A stretch of DNA of 64,000 nucleotides, from assembly GCA_040753795.1 (NCBI GenBank), contig JBFMDX010000002.1, forward strand, positions 310,001-374,000. Reading direction: 5' to 3'. This document shows, piece by piece, positions 2,445-38,192 of the stretch. The position numbers were made by a program, and so were the translations under genes. Under the pieces are notes generated by a model, which was not told where the DNA came from, did not search any database, and saw nothing but the letters and a program-made list of their open reading frames with translations. The stretch is from Thermodesulfobacteriota bacterium. GTDB lineage: Bacteria; Desulfobacterota; Desulfobacteria; Desulfobacterales; Desulfosudaceae. Within the stretch, counting starts at the first letter, position 1, and each line of letters starts with the position of its first letter.

Positions 2445-3155
2445 TTATCGGTTGCCGCCGGCTTCATAAGGTGAGCGCCGGTGGGCGCACTCCCTGACGC
2501 AGAGATAGCAGGGGCTGACGGTGGGCATGGTTTTGGCCGCGATGATCGCCCCGCTCACTGATTTGCGGGGAATCATCAACCCTGTAGACGATACGTGAAT
2601 GCCAATGGTTCCCGGCCTAAGGAAAGGGATAAGGGCCTCCTGCCCTTCTTTCAGGGGCCAATCGCAGTAGCCCGGGCTGAACCGGGCGCTGGATTGCCAT
2701 CCCTTGTCCCTGTAATAACGCCCCACCTCCTGCTGGATTCGGTCGGCATACATCTCGGCCAGCACGGAAGCCGCGGCGTCGAGCATCAGCGCCTTGAGCA
2801 TGGCGGCTTTGCCCAGTTCTCTGATCCGGTCGTCGATGGCGCCGCCCAGGGTGACCGCGAAACAGCAGAGCTCGCGGATGTCTATCATGCGGGCAGCCAG
2901 CCGCGTCCAGTTGACGGTTTCCAGTCTCAGGCCGTTTCCGTTTATGGCGGTTTTTTCCAGGCCGGAAAAATCCGTTGCCCGACACATCGATTCCACCCGG
3001 GCAAGCCGGAGGCATTCTTCGATGCCCTCTTTTATCTGAGCAGAGATATGATCGCTGACCGCCTCCGGGCCGGGGTATCCCAGGTGACGGATGGCACCGG
3101 TCAGGATATCCCTGGCCAGGGGAGGCGTCAGTTTGAGCGAAATGTTATTTGCCAT
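2445..3155 (-). CDS. MetH activation-domain-like protein for a corrinoid methyltransferase
   Basis: A 236-residue protein resembling the S-adenosylmethionine-binding reactivation domain of cobalamin-dependent methionine synthase, seen in SPGYCDWPL, then GI.VSSTGLMIPRKSVSG. In MetH this domain rescues cob(II)alamin by reductive methylation; stand-alone copies sit beside UroD-type methyltransferases and corrinoid proteins, as here. The C-terminus carries CYLCVREC (CxxCxxxC), a possible metal or Fe-S site. ATG 3155 overlaps the true end of the methyltransferase (3145) by 11 bases, which supports readthrough of that gene's TGA; a longer start at 3176 is also open. Probable role: keeping the operon's corrinoid protein active. 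Confidence 0.8.
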   Translation of the reverse strand: MANNISLKLTPPLARDILTGAIRHLGYPGPEAVSDHISAQIKEGIEECLRLARVESMCRATDFSGLEKTAINGNGLRLETVNWTRLAARMIDIRELCCFAVTLGGAIDDRIRELGKAAMLKALMLDAAASVLAEMYADRIQQEVGRYYRDKGWQSSARFSPGYCDWPLKEGQEALIPFLRPGTIGIHVSSTGLMIPRKSVSGAIIAAKTMPTVSPCYLCVRECAHRRSPYEAGGNR

Positions 3156-4338
3156 TGTAGTAGCCGTATTTGACAACCGCCTGAACCATCGCCCGGATGG
3201 TTTCCGCTTTCGCGTTGGGCGGGATCTCTCAGCCGCCGGCCAGGATGAAGCCGCCTCCCCGGCCGACCTCCTCGATCAGGCGGTGGCAGTACTCCTCCAC
3301 CTCGGCGACCGTGCCGGTGACCAGCTTGGCAGCCGGTACGTCGCCGAAGATACACATGTGGTCGCCGATCTCCTGCTTGGCCGCGAAAATATCGGTCAGC
3401 CCGTCCAGCTGGATAATGATTTTTTTAGCGGGCAGGCGGCGCAGGGTTTTGAGATTTTTCAGCCAGTCGCCGTCGCAGTGCAGAATGGGCGTCAGGCCGG
3501 CGTCGATGACGCGGTTGACGATGATTTCCAGGCTGGGAAAAGCCAGTTCGGTGAACTGCTTGGGAGAGATAAAGCTGTTGGAGGTGCGGTGGCAGTAACA
3601 CTGAACCGTGGGCACCCCGGTAAGCTTACAGAACAAAATAGCGGAATCAGCAAAGTTGCGGGCCAGATGGGTGGCGGCCCGGCCGATTTTTTCCGGCCGC
3701 TTGAACAGGTCGGCAGAAAAGTTGATGACGTTGCGGGCCTGGGAAAAAGTGTCAAAGGGCATTTCCGCCTGGTAGCCGATCTGGACGACGGCCCCCTGGC
3801 TGCGCCACCATTTGAAATCACTGCGCCAGAACAGCATCTGGCCGATGAGTCCTCTGGCCATCATGGCGAGTATGGCCGGCATTCCTTTGCCCTGGGCTTC
3901 CTGGCTGAACCGGGGCAGCATGCGCAGCCGGAAGAGCATGTCCGCCAGCAGCGGCGAGGACTGGATCGCCCGGTCATAATCTTCGGGCTCCATGTACTGA
4001 ATCTCGTCGATCTTGGACATGGCGTTTTCTTCCAGTTCGATGCCGGGCCAGAGTTCCCGCATCATCATTACATAATTATACAGCAGTCGGGAGTAAGGGT
4101 TGATGTTGTAATAGATGTCCCAGGGACCGATCTCCTCCCAGACCTGTTTCATCACTCTTTTATATGTCGTCTGATCGCTCATGTACTGACTCATTTTGAC
4201 CCCGGCGTGAATCGGGGCGTAATAGTAGAGCATCAGGGACAGGGGCACCCTGTCCGGTTTTTCCAGGCGGACCACGGCGTCAAACCGCTGCTGGGCCGTC
4301 ATGGTGTCCCGGGGGTAGAGCTTTCTGGCTGTGTTCAT
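3145..4338 (-). CDS. UroD-family corrinoid methyltransferase, probable selenoprotein (Sec370)
   Basis: Uroporphyrinogen-decarboxylase-like methyltransferase (MtaA/CmuA clan), about 397 residues if the TGA at 3229-3231 is read as selenocysteine. The conventional frame stops after 369 residues in FILAGG. The same frame continues for 27 codons, starting EIPPNAKAE and ending YYNGK, then TAA at 3145. Family members have Cys at the TGA position (GCEIPP-type motif), where it binds the catalytic zinc; the other likely ligands are in LHCDGDW (His287, Asp289). ATG 4338 follows GGAGG and overlaps the corrinoid protein stop as ATGA. Role: methyl transfer to or from the corrinoid protein; substrate unknown. 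Alternatives are a sequencing error (TGC/TGT to TGA) or a recent nonsense mutation. Confidence 0.75.
3229..3231 (-). other. In-frame TGA, candidate selenocysteine codon
   Basis: The TGA falls between GG and EIPPNAK, at the family's conserved zinc-binding cysteine. About five bases further on in the mRNA, CCGC and GCGG can pair around an 11-base loop, with an alternative CGC-GAAA-GCG hairpin inside it. This sits within the distance range of bacterial SECIS elements but is weaker than the one in selD; it was judged by eye only. Confidence 0.6.
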
Positions 4339-5006
4339 GCAACGCCTCCTTTTATCTCCCCGTCGGTCAGGTTTTTGAGAATGGTGATGCCTTCGTAGGC
4401 GTCCCGGGTTTGAAAATCAACGCCCAGTTTCTGAATCAGGCTTTGTTCGGTGGCGCCGCCGCCGAGGATAATGCGGGTGTTTTTTCTCAGTCCTTTTTTC
4501 TCCATAAGGGAAACGATCTGTTCAATGGTGCCGAAGGTAGTCGTCAGCAGAGAAGAGAGGCCCAGAATGGGGGCGCCGGTCTTCTCCAGGCTGGCGATGA
4601 AGGCTTCCGGCGGGACGTCCACGCCCAGGTTGTGGACGGCGTACCCGCTGGCTTCGGCCAGAACCGCGAAGATGTCCTTGCCCAGGTCGTGAATATCGCC
4701 CTTGGGGGTGCCCAGCACGATCTCGGCAATGGCCGGGCCGCTGTCGCCGGCGTGCATGGCGCTTTTGACCTTGCGGCTGGCGGTCTTGAACATCTCTCCG
4801 GCCATGACCAGGTGGGGCAGGTAATATTCTCCCTTTTCGAACTTTTCACCGATCTCGGCCATGGCCGGGGTGCAGGTGTCCAGAAACATCCGGACGGTGA
4901 CGCCGGCAGCCAGCATGCTGTCCGCCTCCCGGTCAATGGCGTCGATGTCAAAGCCGAGAAATTTTTCCCGGAATGACGTTACGGCCTTTAATTGCTGATC
5001 GTTCAT
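4335..5006 (-). CDS. Corrinoid (B12-binding) methyl-carrier protein
   Basis: A 223-residue corrinoid protein of the MtaC/MtbC/MttC type. The N-terminal helical cap spans roughly residues 1-85 and the Rossmann-like B12 domain the rest. The lower cobalt ligand is His106 in GDIHDLGKDI, the DxHxxG signature; a later LGLSSLLTTT and LGGGA fit the same fold. It shuttles a methyl group on cobalt between a substrate methyltransferase and the UroD-type enzyme encoded directly after it with a 4-base overlap. GGAGGG precedes the ATG. No MtaB/MttB-like substrate enzyme is visible nearby, so the first methyltransferase is either elsewhere or the downstream enzyme does both jobs. Confidence 0.93.
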   Translation of the reverse strand: MNDQQLKAVTSFREKFLGFDIDAIDREADSMLAAGVTVRMFLDTCTPAMAEIGEKFEKGEYYLPHLVMAGEMFKTASRKVKSAMHAGDSGPAIAEIVLGTPKGDIHDLGKDIFAVLAEASGYAVHNLGVDVPPEAFIASLEKTGAPILGLSSLLTTTFGTIEQIVSLMEKKGLRKNTRIILGGGATEQSLIQKLGVDFQTRDAYEGITILKNLTDGEIKGGVA

Positions 5007-5061: not shown

Positions 5062-5769
5062 TTAAAAGGTCTCCTTATGTTTTTGTTTTCCGGCCGATGC
5101 CGGTTTCTTCTTTCCCGGCGGCGCTGCCTCAGGTGTTGCCTGCGCGGGTTGCTCCTGTTTCAGCACCAGGTAAAACATGCTGGTGAAAATCCGTTCCAGG
5201 GAAATGCGATCTTCCAGGATTGACATGTAAATATGGCCTTCGGTCAGGGAAAGCAGAAGCAGAGATATGGCCGCGCAGTCCGTGGTTTCCGGCAGAAAAC
5301 CACCCCGGACGGCCTGACCGATAAGTTTTTCCAGAAGGACGAGGACATGCCGGTAATGATCATTGACCCGCCGGGAAAAATTCTCATGGGCGTCGCCGCT
5401 GTTGTGCAGGGAGCAGAAGTGGACCAGCTTGTTGAGCCTGTCATTTTTTCTGAATATGTCCAGATAGTTCCATAGCGTTCCGTAGAATTTGTCGATAAAC
5501 GGTTCGTCCCGTTCCGCCGCTTGGGTCAGCAGCTCGATGTACTGGTTCATGCAGGTGTCGATCAGCTCCGAAAGGAGGGCGGCCTTGTTTTCCCAGTACC
5601 AGTAGATGAGCGACTTGCTGACCCCGGCCTCTTCAGCCAGGTCGTCCATGGTGGACTGCTGATATCCTTTGGAGGAAAACAGGTTGATGGCGGCTTCCTT
5701 GATCTGGGCGCGCCGCTGCTGCTCCTTTAAATTCCTTCTCAATCCCAGGGTGTGCTTGGTTACGGCCAT
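5062..5769 (-). CDS. TetR-family regulator of the corrinoid operon
   Basis: A 235-residue TetR repressor. The helix-turn-helix is clear: IKEAAINLFSSKGY, STMDDLAEEAGVSKSLIYWYW. The ligand domain follows, and the C-terminal 35 residues are Ala/Pro/Lys-rich and probably disordered. I prefer ATG 5769 over the GTG at 5784 because GTGGAAAG then serves as ribosome site and the remaining sequence starts like the family. A 26-bp dyad lies just upstream, and it lies 55 bases before the corrinoid protein gene, so it probably controls that operon, itself and perhaps the divergent dehydrogenase. The inducer is unknown. Confidence 0.88.
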   Translation of the reverse strand: MAVTKHTLGLRRNLKEQQRRAQIKEAAINLFSSKGYQQSTMDDLAEEAGVSKSLIYWYWENKAALLSELIDTCMNQYIELLTQAAERDEPFIDKFYGTLWNYLDIFRKNDRLNKLVHFCSLHNSGDAHENFSRRVNDHYRHVLVLLEKLIGQAVRGGFLPETTDCAAISLLLLSLTEGHIYMSILEDRISLERIFTSMFYLVLKQEQPAQATPEAAPPGKKKPASAGKQKHKETF

Positions 5770-5791
5770 TTGGTTGCTTTCCACTGATTCT

Positions 5792-7711: not shown

Positions 7712-10700
7712 TTAGAGTGTATTTCGCTGGATAACCGCCTTCAGGGTGTCCAGTTTCAGCGGCTTGGCGACATAGTCATCCAGTCCCTGGCCTAAAATCC
7801 GCTCCCGGTCTCCGACCATGGCGTTGGCGGTCAGAGCGATCACCGGGACCCGACGGCCACTCTCCCGCTGCATGGCGTGAATCCGTCTGGTGGCCGTAAT
7901 GCCGTCCATGACCGGCATCTGGATGTCCATGAGCACCAGATCGAATTCCTGTCCGTTAAACGCCTCCACGGCTTCGGCGCCGTTTAAAGCGATGGAAAAG
8001 GAGTGCCCCAGCTTTTCTACCATCTGGGCGATGACCTTCAGGCTGATGGGGTTGTCCTCGACGATCAGGATGTTCAGCGGGCTCCGCCGGTCGGGAATGT
8101 TCCCCGGTACAGAAACGTTTTCGCGTACCGGCGGTTGCCGGATCTGCTTTTCAAACGGCATGACAAACCAGAAGGTGCTCCCTTTTCCCAACTCGCTGGA
8201 AAGGCCGATTTCACCGCCCAAAAGGGCGACCAGCCGTTTGGTGATGGCGAGTCCCAGACCGGTACCGCCATAACGCCGGGTGGTAGAGGCATCCACCTGG
8301 GTAAAGGAGTCAAAAATTTTCTGGTGCTGTTCCGCCGGGATGCCGATACCGGTATCCGCTACCGCCAGCATCAGCGTAACGGTCGAGGCGGACATGGTCA
8401 CGGATGAAATCCTGACCGTGACGGATCCGGCTTTGGTGAATTTGACGGCGTTGTCGCAGAGGTTGATAAGGATCTGGCGCAGTCGGACCGGGTCTCCCCG
8501 CAACAGCGTCGGAACATCTTCTTCGATTACGGTATCGAAAACAATCTGCTTGTATTTTGCCCTGGGAAGAATCGCATCCCGCAATTCCCGGCATAATTTT
8601 TCCAGGTCAAAGTCAATGATTTCAAGCGTCAGCATGCCGGCTTCGATCTTAGAGAAGTCCAGCACGTCATTGATGATGGCCAGCAGCGCATCAGCGCTGA
8701 TCTTCAGGCTCTCGACATATTCAAACTGCTCGGCTGACAGCGGTGTTTCCAGCAGCAGTTCGGTCATGCCGATAACGCCGTTCATGGGCGTGCGGATCTC
8801 ATGGCTCATGTTGGCCAGAAATTCACTCTTGGCCCGGTTGGCCGCTTCGGCCGCTTCCTTGGCCTGGGTCAGGGCCTCTTCGGTTGCTTTCCGCTGGGTG
8901 ATATCCCTGGTTACGCCAAGAAGATACAGGGGATTGTCGTCCTTATCGAAAAAAATACGACCGACGGTTTCCAGCCATAAAGTTGATCCGTCCTTGCGGC
9001 AGCCCTCCAGTTCAAGGGTGATGTATTTAAGAGTGCCGTTTTCGGGTTCTTTGCCTCTGGCCAACTCCGATTCCACTGCCTTTAAAATGATTTCCAGTGA
9101 TGGCGGGGTAACCAGTTTTTCAAGGGGGGCTTTGACAAATTCTTCCTGGGTATATCCATACATGGGGAAAATGGAGGGTGTGACAAAAAGAAAACGAAAC
9201 GCCATCGGGTCAAACAGGAAGATGACTTCGCTGATGTTTTCGGCCAGCAGACGATAGCGCTCTTCGCTTTCCCGCAGGGCCTTTTCCGTGTTTTTCCGTT
9301 CTGAAATATCTTTGGCCAGGCCCAGAATGGAAACGGGTTTTCCTTCATCGTTCCTGATAAATCGGGAGGAGTTTTCCATCCACAGGGTCGAGCCGTCTTT
9401 CCGGTAAACTTCCAGTTCCAGGCTGACGAAACGGTTCGGATCAACGCCGGGGAGGCCGTCTCTTTCCAGTTCATCACGGATGAGCGCCGCGACTTTTTCT
9501 AAAGTTCCCCTCGTCATCACTTTGTCCAGGGGAAGCTGCAGAAACTCGTCGTGCGTGTACCCGTGTATCTGTTGCACCGAAGGGGTGGCGTAGGTGTAGT
9601 GGAGTGTCTCAATGTCAAGGAGGTAGATCACCTCGCTGATGTTTTCGGCCAGCATGCGATAGCGCTGTTCGCTTTCGCGGAGGGCGGCTTCGGCCTTTTT
9701 TCTTTCGGTGATATCCCGGGTAACCCCCACCGTGGCCACTGGTTTGCCCGATTCATCACGGATAGCCCTGGCGCTGGTTTCCACCCAGACGGTTGATCCG
9801 TTTTTGCAATAAACTTGCAATTCAAGGGAGATAGGTTTGTCGGCGTCAACGTCCGTTGCAACGTCCCAGGCGATTTTCTCCAGCATGTTTTTCGCGGTTC
9901 GTTCAATAGAATCCGGTGTCAGCAGTTTTTCAATGGGCAAAGCCAGCATCTCTTCCGGCGTGTATCCGAACATGTTTTTAACCGAGGGGCTGGCGTAGGT
10001 ATGACGGAACGTGGCCAGGTCAATAACGAAAATCACTTCGTTGATGTTCTCCGCCAGCATGCGGTATTTTTTTTCGCTTTCGCGCAGGGCGGCTTCGGCC
10101 TTTTTGCGTTCCGTGATGTCCCGGGCCACTCCGACAGCGGTGACAATATTTCCGCCCTCATCCCGCATGGGCTTGACGGTGGTTTCCACCCAGATGGTGG
10201 ATCCGTCCTTGCGATACTGCTCCGTTTCCAGTGATATATACCGGTTTGGATCCACGCCGGGCTGCCCGTCTTTTTCCAGTTCCTGCGCCAGGACCTTGAG
10301 GGTCAGTTCAAGAGATGCCGGGGTTATATGCCGGTCCAGGGTCAGACAGATCGCTTCCTCCGGCGAGTAGCCATACATGCGGGTGATGGAAGGACTGACG
10401 TACTGGTATCGGAGTTGTTGAATGTCGAGAATAAAAAGCACTTCGCCGATATTATCCGCCAGGAGGCGATATCGTTTTTCGTTTTCCTGTAAAGCGAGTT
10501 CCGCTTTTCTTTTTTCCGTAATGTCCCGGGCCACGCCGACGATGGAGACCGGCCGTCCGGTTTCATCCCTCAGAAATTTAACCGAGGTTTCCACCTGAAT
10601 GACGGAGCCGTCCTTGCGGTACTGCTCCATTTCCAGGGTGAGATGGCGGTTGTGGTCCACTTCGGACTGCTGCGCTTCTCGCTCCAGTTCCTGTTCCAGT

Positions 10701-11437
10701 ATTTTCAGAGACTTATCAAGCGTCGGAGGGGTTAGAATTCTGTCTATGGTAAGTTCGAGTATTTCTTCCGGCGTGAACCCGTGGGTGCGGATGACCGAAG
10801 GGCTGATATACGTGTATCGCAGGGAAGCGATATCGACAATATAGAGGACCTCATTGATGTTTTCGGCCAGTATCCGGTAGGGCTCCTCGCTTTCATTCAG
10901 TGCCGCTTCCGCTTTCTTGCGATCCGTGATATCCCGGCTTACCCCGATAACCATGGTGGGGCGACCGGTGTTATCGCGCAGTGGCCTGACGGTGGTTTCC
11001 ACCCAGAACGTCGAGCCGTCTTTGCGAAACTGCTCGGTTTCCAGGGTGATGGAGCGGTTGGGGTCAACGTCGGGCAAGCCGTCTCTCTCCAGCTCACGGG
11101 AGATTGTATTAACGACGATATGATAGGATGAAGGCGGCATCAGCCGGTCAAGAGACATCTCGGTCGCTTCCCCGGGAGTGTAGCCATAAGCGCGAGCCAC
11201 GGACGGGCTGACAAAATTAAACCGCAGGGTTTCAAGGTCGAGAATGAAGATGACCTCATTGATGTTTTCAGCCAGCAGGCGATATTTGTCCGCCTCCTCC
11301 CGCAGTCGCGACGTTTCCGCCTGATTGGTGTTGTTCGTTTTTTTCAGGAATTGCTTACCCAGAACAAAAGCGATGGCAGAAGCCAGAAGGAAAGAGAGGG
11401 CGATGGCCGCCAAGAAGGCTGTCGGAGAAATGCTCAT
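7712..11437 (-). CDS. Hybrid sensor histidine kinase with six tandem PAS domains
   Basis: A 1241-residue hybrid kinase. A single membrane helix (about residues 8-28) anchors it with almost no periplasmic part. Six PAS-PAC units of about 130 residues follow, each beginning like [10 protein letters not shown], with a SPSV..YGYTPEE-like core and ending near [10 protein letters not shown]. Then come HisKA ([10 protein letters not shown], phospho-His about residue 860), HATPase with DTGIGIP and GGTGLGL, and a C-terminal receiver ([18 protein letters not shown]). No phosphotransfer domain or partner regulator is adjacent. PAS repeats are similar even in DNA, suggesting internal duplication. Input is likely cytoplasmic (redox, gas or small ligand), but no haem or flavin signature is evident. 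Confidence 0.93.
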
Positions 11438-11591: not shown

Positions 11592-12641
11592 ATGGGTGAA
11601 GCAAAATATATTCGTCTGACCGCGACGGTGACGGGAGCCGGCTGAGCGTCCAAACTGGGTCCGGGGGACCTGGACCGGGCACTCTGCGGATTGATCTTTC
11701 CGAGCGACGAAAACGTCCTGGTGGGGCTGGAACGCGCCGATGATGCCGGGGTGTACCGGATTTCCGATGACCTGGCCCTGATCCAGACCGTGGATTTTTT
11801 CACGCCCGTGGTGGACGATCCCTACTGGTTCGGTCAGATCGCCGCCGCCAACGCCCTGAGCGATGTCTACGCCATGGGAGGGATTCCCAAGACAGCCATG
11901 AATCTGGTGGCTTTTCCGGCCATGGATATGGACATGGCGGTTCTGCGGCAGATCATCCAGGGTGGGATCGACAAACTCAAGGAAGCCGGAGCGGTGCTGA
12001 TCGGCGGACACAGCATCGAAGACAAAGAGTTAAAGTACGGTCTGTCGGTCACGGGCTTTATCCATCCGTCGCGGGTGCTGACCAAGAAAAACCTGCGGGC
12101 GGGCGATCAATTGATCCTGACCAAGGCACTGGGTACCGGTATCATCAATACCGCCATCAAGGGGGGGCTGGCGCCGGCCGAACTGGTCGAACGCGTCTGC
12201 CGCCAGATGGCCGAACTCAACCGGGCGGCGGCGCTAACCATGTCCCGGTTTGACGTGGCCGCCTGCACCGATATCAGCGGCTTTGGCCTGCTCGGTCATG
12301 CGGCCGAGATGGTCTGCGGCTCCGGCAAAAGCTTCCGGATCAAGGCCGCCGGCGTGCCCGTCATCTCCGAGGCCCTGGAATTCGCCGCCATGGGGCTGAT
12401 ACCGGCGGGCGCGCACCGGAACCGGGAATTCCGCGCGCCCATGATGAATTTCTGTAAAACCGTGCCGCTTTCCCTCCAGGACGTGCTGGTGGATCCCCAG
12501 ACCTCCGGCGGCCTGCTGATCAGTGTCAGCGGAAAACAGGCGGAGGAGCTGGTATCGGCCCTGAAGCAGGCCGGCGTCGGCGCCGCGGCCCGGATCGGCG
12601 AGGTGATCGACAATCCGGAAGAGAAGATATGGGTGGACTAA
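11592..12641 (+). CDS. selD: Selenophosphate synthetase, selenocysteine-containing (Sec18)
   Basis: SelD makes selenophosphate from selenide and ATP, the selenium donor for Sec-tRNA. A conventional reading gives only a fragment from 11691, but ATG 11592 starts a frame with the typical N-terminus: LTATVTGAG, TGA, ASKLGPGDL. The TGA (11643-11645, codon 18) is at the active-site Cys/Sec position of the family (Cys17 in E. coli). The rest is standard: DDAGVY, TVDFFTPVVDDP, GHSIED, DISGFGLLGHA, DPQTSGGLL. Total 349 residues; AAGGA precedes the ATG. The gene therefore needs Sec decoding for its own product, a known arrangement in Sec-using bacteria. selA and selB are not in the window. Confidence 0.93.
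11643..11674 (+). promoter_or_regulatory. Sec TGA codon and bacterial SECIS hairpin of selD
   Basis: TGA at 11643-11645 is followed by a hairpin: outer stem TCCA/TGGA (11649-11652 with 11671-11674), an internal loop on the 5' side, and a perfect inner stem GGTCC/GGACC (11658-11662 with 11666-11670) closed by a GGG loop. A short stem with G in the apical loop right after the UGA is the recognised pattern of bacterial SECIS elements bound by SelB. Confidence 0.75.
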
Positions 12642-19700: not shown

Positions 19701-20381
19701 ATGAAGAAACTGCACGAACGGGAGAAGAAACAGTTTAAAAAGCTATTTAGCCAGGACGAACTCAAGGATTTTGATGCCCGGCTGTCCATACTTGAGGCTT
19801 TCCTTCAGGCCAACCGACATGTTACCGTTACCGAATTAAATAAGATTGTTACGGAAAAGGGAAGCCCCTTTGACAGCGCCTTTATCCGGGACACCCTCAA
19901 AATGTTATGCCGCTACGGGTTTGCCCGCAGGCATCGGTTTGATGACGGAATCGTCCGTTATGAACCCTGGCATCTGGAGGATCATCATGACCACATGATC
20001 TGCATGAAATGCGGCAAGATCCTGGAGTTCCGGGATGATCAACTGGAAAAGATTCAGGAGGATGTGGCCGCGACCCAGGGGTTTCATATGCTCCAGCACC
20101 GGATGGAAATATACGGCATTTGCGCTGAGTGCTTGAATACACGGGATATGGTTGTCCCGCTGGTCCGGGCCAAACCGGGGGAAAAAGTCACGATCCAGGA
20201 TTTTTCCGGCGGTTCCAGCGCCCGCATGCGCTTGATGTCCATGGGATTAAGAGCGGGTGACGTTCTGGATGTGATTACCAGTGATCCTACCGGTCAGCTG
20301 GTTGTGGCGACCGGGAACAAGCGATATGCCATCGGCAGAGGCCTGGCGAAAAAGATTCAGGTCAGGCCTACCGGTAAATAA
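19701..20381 (+). CDS. Fur-FeoA fusion regulator
   Basis: A 226-residue protein with an N-terminal Fur-type repressor (about 1-150) and a C-terminal FeoA domain (about 150-226). The Fur part has the winged helix, the metal site region LEDHHDHMICMKCGK with CxxC, and a second CxxC in YGICAEC. The FeoA part reads GEKVTIQDFSGGSSARMRLMSMGLRAGD and ends in the usual RGLAKKIQV. Separate feoA and feoB genes follow, so the FeoA-like domain may sense FeoB or metal status rather than act in transport. Fur-only and FeoA-only proteins are standard; this joined form is unusual. Regulation of the feo promoter just downstream is the natural inference. Confidence 0.87.
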   Translation: MKKLHEREKKQFKKLFSQDELKDFDARLSILEAFLQANRHVTVTELNKIVTEKGSPFDSAFIRDTLKMLCRYGFARRHRFDDGIVRYEPWHLEDHHDHMICMKCGKILEFRDDQLEKIQEDVAATQGFHMLQHRMEIYGICAECLNTRDMVVPLVRAKPGEKVTIQDFSGGSSARMRLMSMGLRAGDVLDVITSDPTGQLVVATGNKRYAIGRGLAKKIQVRPTGK

Positions 20382-20799: not shown

Positions 20800-22977
20800 A
20801 TGGAAAAAAAACATATTACAATCGCGCTTACCGGAAATCCCAATGCCGGTAAAACAACCATCTTCAATGCCCTGACCGGTACGCGGCAGAAGGTCGGCAA
20901 CTGGGCCGGGGTAACCGTCGAGAAAAAAGAGGGTGTCATCACCCATGGCACGTATGAGATCCATGTGGTGGACCTGCCCGGCACTTACAGCCTGACCCCT
21001 TTTTCGATGGAAGAAATCATCGCCAGAAATTTTATTATCGACGAATCGCCGGACGTGGTCGTCAATATTATCGACGCCTCTAACATAGAACGGAACCTGT
21101 ATCTGGCCACCCAGATCCGGGAACTGGACTGCAAGGTATTGTTTGTTTTGAATATGGCGGATCTGGCTGCTTCCAAGGGGGTCCGCATCGATGCCGCCAA
21201 ACTGTCGGAACTGCTGGATGTGGAGATTGTTTATACGGTCGGAAACAAGGGGGAAGGCGTTACCGCCCTTCTGGAAAAGGCCGTCCGACTGGCAGAAGAG
21301 GGGAAACCGGTTCAACCGGAAAGAAGAGTTCGTTACAACCGGGACATCGAAGCGGCCATTGCCGATCTCCAGTCCATGATCGACGCTCAAGGCGGTCTGT
21401 TTTATAACAGCCGCTGGATCGCCATCAAACTTCTCGAACGCGACGAGATCGTCAGCCGGCGGGTCAGCAGCGAAGCCGGAGCCGCCGGAAAAGAACTCCT
21501 GAAAAAAGCCGATGTCCATCGCGGCCGCCTGGCGGATCTGTTTGATGACGATCTGGAAATCATCATGACCGATGAGCGGTATGGGTTCATTGCCGGATTC
21601 GTCAAGGAAGTGGTGACGATTACCAAGAAGAATCGTGTCGATCTGTCCCGCAACATTGATCTTGTTCTGACCAACAAATTTTTCGGATTTCCGATTTTTA
21701 TTTTTTTCATCTGGCTCATGTTCCAGCTGACCTTTTCCGTCGGGGCCTACCCCATGGAGGCGATTGAAAAAGGGTTTGCTCTGCTGTTTTTTGCCGCGGA
21801 CCGCATGCTTTCCGACGGCCTGTTCAAGGATTTCATCAGGGATGGCGTTCTTGCCGGCGTCGGCAGCGTTGCCGTTTTCCTGCCGAATATTCTTATCCTG
21901 TTTTTCTGTATCGCCCTTCTCGAAGATACCGGCTATATGGCCAGGGCCGCTTTTCTGATGGACAGGATCATGCACCTTATCGGTCTGCATGGAAAATCAT
22001 TCATCCCCATGCTGATGGGATTCGGCTGCAGCGTTCCGGCCGTTATGGCGACACGCACCCTGGGAAACCGAAAGGATCGAATCCTGACAATATTGATTAC
22101 CCCATTCATGTCCTGTTCCGCGAGGCTTCCGGTTTATATTGTGCTGGCGGGCACTTTTTTCCCGAACGCTGCCGGAACGGTCATCTTTCTGATTTATCTT
22201 TCCGGTATCGTCATCGCTATGATCAGCGGACGAATTTTCAGGTCCCTCCTGTTGCGGGGTGAAGACGCGCCTTTTGTCATGGAACTGCCCCCCTACCGCG
22301 CGCCCATGATCAAGGGGTTGCTAATCCACATGTGGGACCGGGCCCGGCAGTTTTTAAAAAAAATGGGCGGCGTGATTCTGATCGGTTCCATTATCGTCTG
22401 GGGGTTATCTGTCTTTCCCCGCGATATTTCCTTTTCAAAGGATTATGCCAAGGAACTGGTTGATGTCCAGAATGCCTATCAGCTCAAAATGGACAAAATC
22501 GAGGACCAGGCGCTGATGCGACGCCTCGCCTCGGAACGCGATGAGGCCGTGAAGAATATCATCCGCGCCAGGGAAAAAGAGCGTACGGAGAAGGTGTATA
22601 TGGGCAGAATCGGCAAGGCTATTGCGCCGTTCTTTGAACCTTTAGGGATTGACTGGCGGGGCAGCGTATCGCTGCTGACCGGATTTGTCGCCAAGGAAAT
22701 TGTCGTCAGTTCCATGGGGGTGCTGTATGCCGTTGAGGGGCACGATCAGTCCGCTCTGGGAAAAGCCCTGCGGAGTTCGGGGATGACACCGCTGTCGGCC
22801 CTGTCAATGATGGTTTTTGTCCTGCTGTACATCCCCTGTCTGGCCACGGTGCTTGTCATCATGCGGGAAACGGGAGCGGCGAAGTGGGCGCTTTTTAATA
22901 TTGTTTATTCAACTTCCGTCGCCTGGTCCGCCGCTTTTATTGTGTATCAGACGGGCCTGATTTTTACTGCCGGTTGA
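20800..22977 (+). CDS. feoB: Ferrous iron transporter FeoB
   Basis: A 725-residue inner-membrane Fe(II) transporter. The N-terminal G domain has GNPNAGKTT (P-loop), the switch segment NWAGVTVEKKEG, DLPGTYSL and NMAD; a helical spacer follows to about residue 270. The membrane part contains the two Gate motifs with conserved cysteines (GFGCSVPAVMATR and MSCSARLPVY), as in functional FeoB. A roughly 70-residue charged stretch (about 545-605) sits between membrane segments. It is co-transcribed with feoA. Ferrous iron uptake fits an anaerobe. Confidence 0.96.
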   Translation: MEKKHITIALTGNPNAGKTTIFNALTGTRQKVGNWAGVTVEKKEGVITHGTYEIHVVDLPGTYSLTPFSMEEIIARNFIIDESPDVVVNIIDASNIERNLYLATQIRELDCKVLFVLNMADLAASKGVRIDAAKLSELLDVEIVYTVGNKGEGVTALLEKAVRLAEEGKPVQPERRVRYNRDIEAAIADLQSMIDAQGGLFYNSRWIAIKLLERDEIVSRRVSSEAGAAGKELLKKADVHRGRLADLFDDDLEIIMTDERYGFIAGFVKEVVTITKKNRVDLSRNIDLVLTNKFFGFPIFIFFIWLMFQLTFSVGAYPMEAIEKGFALLFFAADRMLSDGLFKDFIRDGVLAGVGSVAVFLPNILILFFCIALLEDTGYMARAAFLMDRIMHLIGLHGKSFIPMLMGFGCSVPAVMATRTLGNRKDRILTILITPFMSCSARLPVYIVLAGTFFPNAAGTVIFLIYLSGIVIAMISGRIFRSLLLRGEDAPFVMELPPYRAPMIKGLLIHMWDRARQFLKKMGGVILIGSIIVWGLSVFPRDISFSKDYAKELVDVQNAYQLKMDKIEDQALMRRLASERDEAVKNIIRAREKERTEKVYMGRIGKAIAPFFEPLGIDWRGSVSLLTGFVAKEIVVSSMGVLYAVEGHDQSALGKALRSSGMTPLSALSMMVFVLLYIPCLATVLVIMRETGAAKWALFNIVYSTSVAWSAAFIVYQTGLIFTAG

Positions 22978-37346: not shown

Positions 37347-38192
37347 ATGAAATGGCGACCGTTTTTCATCCCCGTTCAATCCATGGACACCGCCCTGGCT
37401 CGGGAACTGATTGCGAAAACACCCCAAGAAGCGCTGTTCATTATCGATGTGCGTCAGCCCGGAGAATATGAGCAGGGGCATATTCCCGGCGCCCGGCTGA
37501 TCCCCGTGGGAGAACTGGACAGCCGGGTTGCCGAGATCCCGGTCGATAAACCCGTTCTGGTTTATTGCGCCATGGGAGGACGAAGCCGGATGGCGGCTCA
37601 AATACTGTCCGGGAGAGGGTTCCCGGAGGTTATCGACCTGGCGGGCGGATTTAAAGCCTGGAAAGGTGTCACGGCCGTGGGTCTACCGGATCAGGGATTG
37701 TCCCTTTTTTCAGGAAGCGAGTCCATTGATGAAGTGCTTGCCGCGGCCTACTCCATTGAAGACGGATTGCGCGACTTCTACCACACCATGGCCGGGAAAG
37801 CGGCAAATCATCTGACTGCGGATCTGTTTGAAAAATTGGCCGCTATTGAAGTCAAGCATCAGGACCGCATTTATGAGACTTACATGACCATGGCTGAACG
37901 GCCGATGGCCAGAGAGCGGTTTGTCGCCGAACGGGTGGACGGAGTCATCGAGGGCGGCATGACCACCGATGAATACATCGCTAGGTTCTCTCCGGATATG
38001 ACCTCCACCGTCGATATCATCAGCCTGGCCATTTCCATCGAGGCCCAGGCGATGGATCTCTATTCCCGGGCTTCGGAGAAGATCGCTGCCGGAACCGGCG
38101 GGAAAGCTCTAGCGCTACTGGCCGACGAAGAACGCGCCCACATTCGGGAATTGGGGAAACTTCTGGACACCCTGGTCAAGGTCAAAGGCTGA
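37347..38192 (+). CDS. Rhodanese-rubrerythrin-like fusion protein
   Basis: A 281-residue two-domain protein. Residues about 10-115 are a rhodanese domain (FIIDVRQPGEYEQGHIPGA, active loop YCAMGGRS with the persulfide cysteine, LAGGFKAWK). Residues about 130-280 are a ferritin-like four-helix domain with four glutamate sites in the rubrerythrin pattern: SIEDGLRDFY, AIEVKHQ, SISIEAQAMDLY and ADEERAHI. No rubredoxin domain is present. The rhodanese would carry sulfur or persulfide; the diiron site suggests peroxide reduction, so the protein may handle sulfane sulfur and oxidant together in an anaerobe. The stop overlaps the murI end on the other strand. Confidence 0.87.
   Translation: MKWRPFFIPVQSMDTALARELIAKTPQEALFIIDVRQPGEYEQGHIPGARLIPVGELDSRVAEIPVDKPVLVYCAMGGRSRMAAQILSGRGFPEVIDLAGGFKAWKGVTAVGLPDQGLSLFSGSESIDEVLAAAYSIEDGLRDFYHTMAGKAANHLTADLFEKLAAIEVKHQDRIYETYMTMAERPMARERFVAERVDGVIEGGMTTDEYIARFSPDMTSTVDIISLAISIEAQAMDLYSRASEKIAAGTGGKALALLADEERAHIRELGKLLDTLVKVKG

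Follow-up and report, generated by a model that had tools for sequence, protein, structure and literature searches.

Probable selenocysteine decoding of an in-frame TGA

Does the in-frame TGA near the end of a UroD-family methyltransferase gene encode selenocysteine (Sec) and, if it does, what would the residue do there? The gene lies on a 64,000-nucleotide stretch of a Thermodesulfobacteriota bacterium of sulfate-reducer type (GCA_040753795.1, JBFMDX010000002.1, positions 310,001-374,000). This whole stretch is referred to as the window, its coordinates are used throughout, and the genome is termed G000 in the comparisons.

3145-4338, minus strand: UroD-family corrinoid methyltransferase of 397 aa, with predicted Sec at residue 370 (open reading frame through the TGA, PF01208, predicted fold)
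3229-3231, minus strand: in-frame TGA, codon 370, very probably read as selenocysteine (TGA shared with G001, Cys in the 39 others)

The gene starts with the ATG at 4338 and reads ...GGGFILAGG just before the TGA (3231-3229). The TGA is followed by 27 sense codons, EIPPNAKAETIRAMVQAVVKYGYYNGK, and then by TAA at 3147-3145. The ATG of the downstream gene is at 3155, giving an 11-base overlap with the tail. The first-pass annotation had described this same arrangement of FILAGG, TGA, 27-codon tail, TAA and 11-base overlap, and its coordinates were right on rereading. The large open reading frame at 3091-4398 on the plus strand was considered a shadow of the minus coding strand.

Homologues of 29-82% identity were collected by searching 389 genomes of the class, ~395 of the phylum and, in addition, a public genome collection. 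The large protein searches scored the best four candidates per genome, so that Sec forms in other UroD groups may be missed. The closest relative found belongs to another genus of the same family (G001), shares 82% protein identity and has TGA at the same codon. The other 39 distinct homologues compared (29-70% identity) all have Cys at residue 370, in most cases within a motif like G-F-I-L-x-x-G-C-x-x-P. The Cys/Sec pairing proposed as a check at first pass was thus seen on alignment, with Cys in 39 genes and TGA in 2 at this position. Near-cognate readthrough inserting Trp was discounted, as Cys is present in every homologue compared. The TGA is one base away from TGC or TGT, as an assembly or sequencing error would require. 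However, the second genome, of another genus and with 82% protein identity, has the identical TGA, which makes such an error very improbable.

The C-termini of the close family align without gaps to the 27-codon tail, and the match extends to the KYGYY in which the close relatives end. Within the tail, mismatches between G000 and G001 fall at 11 third positions versus 6 first and second positions (Fisher p = 0.0035), and the substitution pattern is the same as in the rest of the gene. Maximum-likelihood phylogeny grouped the two Sec genes in one supported clade nested among the Cys genes, so a single Cys-to-Sec change is most likely. A pattern scan for GFILxxGUxxP across the 389 class genomes detected the UroD Sec form in G000 and G001 only. 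Five other matches to the scan had GFIF rather than GFIL, in two cases with another stop close by, and were judged by eye to be due to chance. With two genomes of one bacterial family so far, the Sec form is apparently narrow in range.

Two further observations were made on the homologues. G001 has a second UroD-type gene together with a corrinoid gene (L059:1-1574) ~5 kb from its Sec gene, and this second gene has Thr aligned at the residue-370 position. Two other genomes (L036, L037) have UroD-type frames of ~600 residues, perhaps fused to another domain.

Selenocysteine machinery and a candidate SECIS element

The genome encodes tRNA-Sec (75 bits, anticodon UCA), SelB (372 bits) and SelA (603 bits), and SelB was found in G001 also. 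A selD gene is present in the window itself.

11592-12641, plus strand: selD, selenide water dikinase (TIGR00476, 367 bits), with its own in-frame TGA at 11643-11645

The selD frame reads TGAGUASKLGP through its TGA, at the usual place for SelD. Owing to this in-frame TGA, a standard ORF call places the start too far into the gene (11691). The lack of machinery that had been considered at first pass was not observed, as selA, selB, selC and selD were all found in the genome.

A SECIS-like hairpin was also noticed downstream of the TGA.

3184-3202, minus strand: SECIS-like hairpin, 7-bp stem AACCAUC/GAUGGUU and loop CGGGC, the loop beginning 33 nt past the TGA

Both Sec genes share the stem AACC[A/G]UC/GAUGGUU and the loop CG[G/U]GC. 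All seven stem pairs are formed in both, compared with 2-6 of 7 in the Cys homologues; the third pair is completed by Thr in the two Sec genes, where most Cys homologues have Asn. Loop size, the G at the second loop position and the 33-nt spacing fit the published bacterial SECIS model, but at -6.9 the stem energy falls short of the -7.5 threshold (PMC13188914). In a synonymous-codon null, 347 of 5000 random draws were as good as the hairpin (p ~0.07). One Cys homologue has a chance hairpin stronger than that of the Sec genes, and the minimum-energy fold of G001 is without the hairpin. Folding of 56 bases around the TGA as a single strand showed no excess stability (z 0.03). Since the hairpin was found after inspection and the null gave p ~0.07, it was kept out of the primary evidence, and it lends weak support to Sec decoding.

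The TGA could instead be a true stop, producing a 369-residue enzyme with the tail a relic or otherwise used. In this genome TGA is an ordinary stop codon, the hairpin gives a weak signal and the next ATG lies within the tail. Against this, the TGA is kept in a second genus, the tail is under coding constraint, Cys occupies the same codon in 39 homologues and the Sec machinery is complete. Judging from the model, truncation would also leave the protein without its last helix and without one probable ligand. We therefore regard a true stop as very improbable. The shared TGA, the Cys homologues, the coding-like tail and the Sec machinery together make decoding of codon 370 as Sec very likely. 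The proposal of the first-pass annotation that this TGA is decoded as Sec is therefore supported by the Cys/TGA alternation, the second genome with TGA and the full machinery.

The candidate metal site of the predicted Sec enzyme

The protein matched PF01208 (URO-D) with 100 bits against a curated cut-off of 23.9. The NCBIfam models for MtaA, MtbA and CmuA gave 27-62 bits, far under their cut-offs of 235-600. The AlphaFold model (pLDDT 94.4) matched UroD and MtaA at Z 28 (TIM barrel), with Z 28.4 to the MtaA structure 4ay8.

3472-3480, minus strand: His287-Cys288-Asp289, with two further candidate metal ligands in His287 and Asp289 (MtaA alignment)

In a profile alignment with MtaA (4ay7), His287, Asp289 and residue 370 fell on the zinc-ligand His, Cys and Cys of MtaA, which we take to be H240, C242 and C319. 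The earlier placement of residue 370 at a zinc-ligand Cys position is thus supported by its alignment with the C-terminal zinc-ligand Cys of MtaA. His287, Asp289 and Cys/Sec370 are invariant across 23 aligned family members, whereas four UroD paralogues of the same genome have H-x-C rather than H-x-D. The site is therefore probably His-Asp-Sec rather than His-Cys-Sec, and we consider it likely that the gene encodes a selenoprotein with Sec at a metal-site position.

According to Kountz and Balskus, His-Cys-Cys marks S-methyl enzymes and a carboxylate substitution marks O-methyl enzymes (PMC10418091). By this rule, Asp289 as the middle ligand would place the family among the O-methyl kind, and we give an O-methyl substrate an even chance. 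Alternatively, the protein could contain Sec and yet be MT-II-like or an S/Se-methyl enzyme (MtaA and Mlp being examples), carrying methyl groups between the corrinoid and a thiol or selenol and possibly serving to recycle selenium. The MtaA/MtbA-type models match with E values of 1e-6 to 1e-17, type 1 mlp clusters are tied to methyl-selenium metabolism (PMC10418091) and selD lies ~7 kb from the Sec gene. However, the S-type is His-Cys-Cys (PMC10418091), the middle ligand is Asp in 23/23 family members, and H-x-C is seen instead in the four UroD paralogues. This alternative is thus unlikely, though it deserves more weight than a true stop, and we continue with an O-methyl enzyme as the preferred reading.

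A selenolate is a good nucleophile, and Sec370 could be real without being a zinc ligand, attacking the substrate methyl in a metal-free site or relaying it to cobalt. Precedent exists in CdmB, the only solved close relative, and in the Moorella O-demethylase, both of which function without zinc (PMC13222342). As the nearest solved relative is zinc-free, metal binding is not to be assumed (PMC13222342). CdmB, however, is without the ligand residues, whereas His287, Asp289 and Cys/Sec370 are invariant here, which argues that the metal site is retained. We consider a metal-free site improbable, slightly more so than an S/Se-methyl enzyme, and favour a metal-binding Sec370.

The corrinoid partner and the gene neighbourhood

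The Sec gene is flanked by the following genes.

4335-5006, minus strand: corrinoid protein with cap and B12-binding domains (PF02310, PF02607) and a GDIHDLG motif
2445-3155, minus strand: stand-alone MetH activation-domain protein (PF02965, 39 bits), overlapping the Sec tail by 11 bases
5062-5784, minus strand: TetR-family regulator (PF00440) heading the cluster; 6 of 12 loci have a related gene

The corrinoid protein gene is directly upstream of the Sec gene, and 11 of the 12 neighbourhoods compared contain a related gene. This adjacency points to a role as substrate:corrinoid methyltransferase (MT-I), and MT-I is the likely predicted function of the Sec enzyme. The MetH activation-domain gene was found in 4 of 12 loci, both Sec genomes among them, and its product could assist in reactivating the corrinoid. 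Elsewhere in the genome are genes for one RACE activase and for CdhC (Wood-Ljungdahl pathway). A clue to the substrate was sought in the 12 neighbourhoods, and none was found beyond the corrinoid, TetR and activation-domain genes.

Three further features of the window were recorded. A long sensor kinase (7712-11437, minus strand) has, by eye, about six similar PAS-type repeats ahead of its kinase and receiver regions. A Fur-type regulator fused to a FeoA domain (19701-20381, plus strand) lies upstream of a feoB-like gene (20800-22977), and a rubrerythrin-like domain is fused to a rhodanese domain at 37347-38192 (plus strand).

Discussion

We propose that SelB and tRNA-Sec would decode the TGA at codon 370 to yield a 397-residue methyltransferase of UroD fold. 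Sec370 would replace the Cys expected to hold zinc with His287 and Asp289 in the TIM-barrel active site, and the zinc would grip the heteroatom of the substrate, probably oxygen. From the substrate the methyl group would go to Co(I) of the upstream-encoded corrinoid protein, and from there by way of tetrahydrofolate into the Wood-Ljungdahl pathway. Within this scheme, we infer the zinc content, the O-methyl substrate and the direction of transfer. The advantage of selenium may be that it is a softer, more electron-rich ligand, or that it resists irreversible oxidation; at first pass a stronger nucleophile had also been named as a possible gain. On balance, we lean towards a zinc-selenolate site in a B12-dependent methyltransferase, in which Sec would act as a metal ligand in non-redox methyl transfer and which would represent an uncatalogued selenoprotein family.

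Recoded stop codons are found in the active sites of other corrinoid-dependent MT-I enzymes, MttB, MtbB and MtmB, but these use TAG and pyrrolysine and are unrelated in sequence and chemistry. MtaA and MtbA (methylcobalamin:coenzyme M methyltransferase; 4ay7, 4ay8) share the UroD fold, the H-x-[C/D]...C positions and a corrinoid partner with the Sec enzyme. It is only ~16% identical to them, however, and their first and second Cys ligands are replaced in it by Asp and Sec, respectively. The best-matching solved structure is CdmB, the chloromethane methyltransferase of Acetobacterium dehalogenans (9rui, E 7e-25; PMC13222342), likewise a UroD-type MT-I with a corrinoid protein. All three ligand residues and the zinc are absent from CdmB, whereas the ligand residues are invariant in the family of the Sec enzyme. 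The UroD-type O-demethylases MtvB, OdmB, VdmB and MtoB, compared by description, have the superfamily and the MT-I role in common with it. Carboxylate-containing zinc sites have been reported for O-methyl enzymes (PMC10418091), and the literature search found no description of a Sec form of MtvB, OdmB, VdmB or MtoB. The organometallic selenoproteins HgcA, SaoL and SaoB also have Sec for Cys at a metal-linked position (PMC13188914). HgcA is a corrinoid protein, but all three differ from the Sec enzyme in fold and metals.

UroD-type methyltransferases are absent from a catalogue of May 2026 that covers 119 families of prokaryotic selenoproteins, those of Haft and Gwadz 2023 among them (PMC13188914). 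NCBIfam has no matching selenoprotein model, and no Sec UroD-type methyltransferase was found in a literature search for which most subscription papers were beyond reach. The first-pass annotation had known of no well-described Sec form of this enzyme class, in agreement with the catalogue (PMC13188914), NCBIfam and the literature searched. Going by sequence, the protein represents a credible new selenoprotein family, the enzyme being of a familiar type but in a Sec form.

Gene finders without Sec decoding would end members of the family at the TGA, so that the last helix and one probable metal ligand would go missing. Thiol-type redox enzymes make up the majority of known selenoproteins (PMC13188914). 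If Sec370 occupies a zinc-ligand position, these homologues would provide a natural Sec/Cys pair with which to probe selenium in methyl transfer and metal binding, in a setting that requires no redox change of the residue itself.
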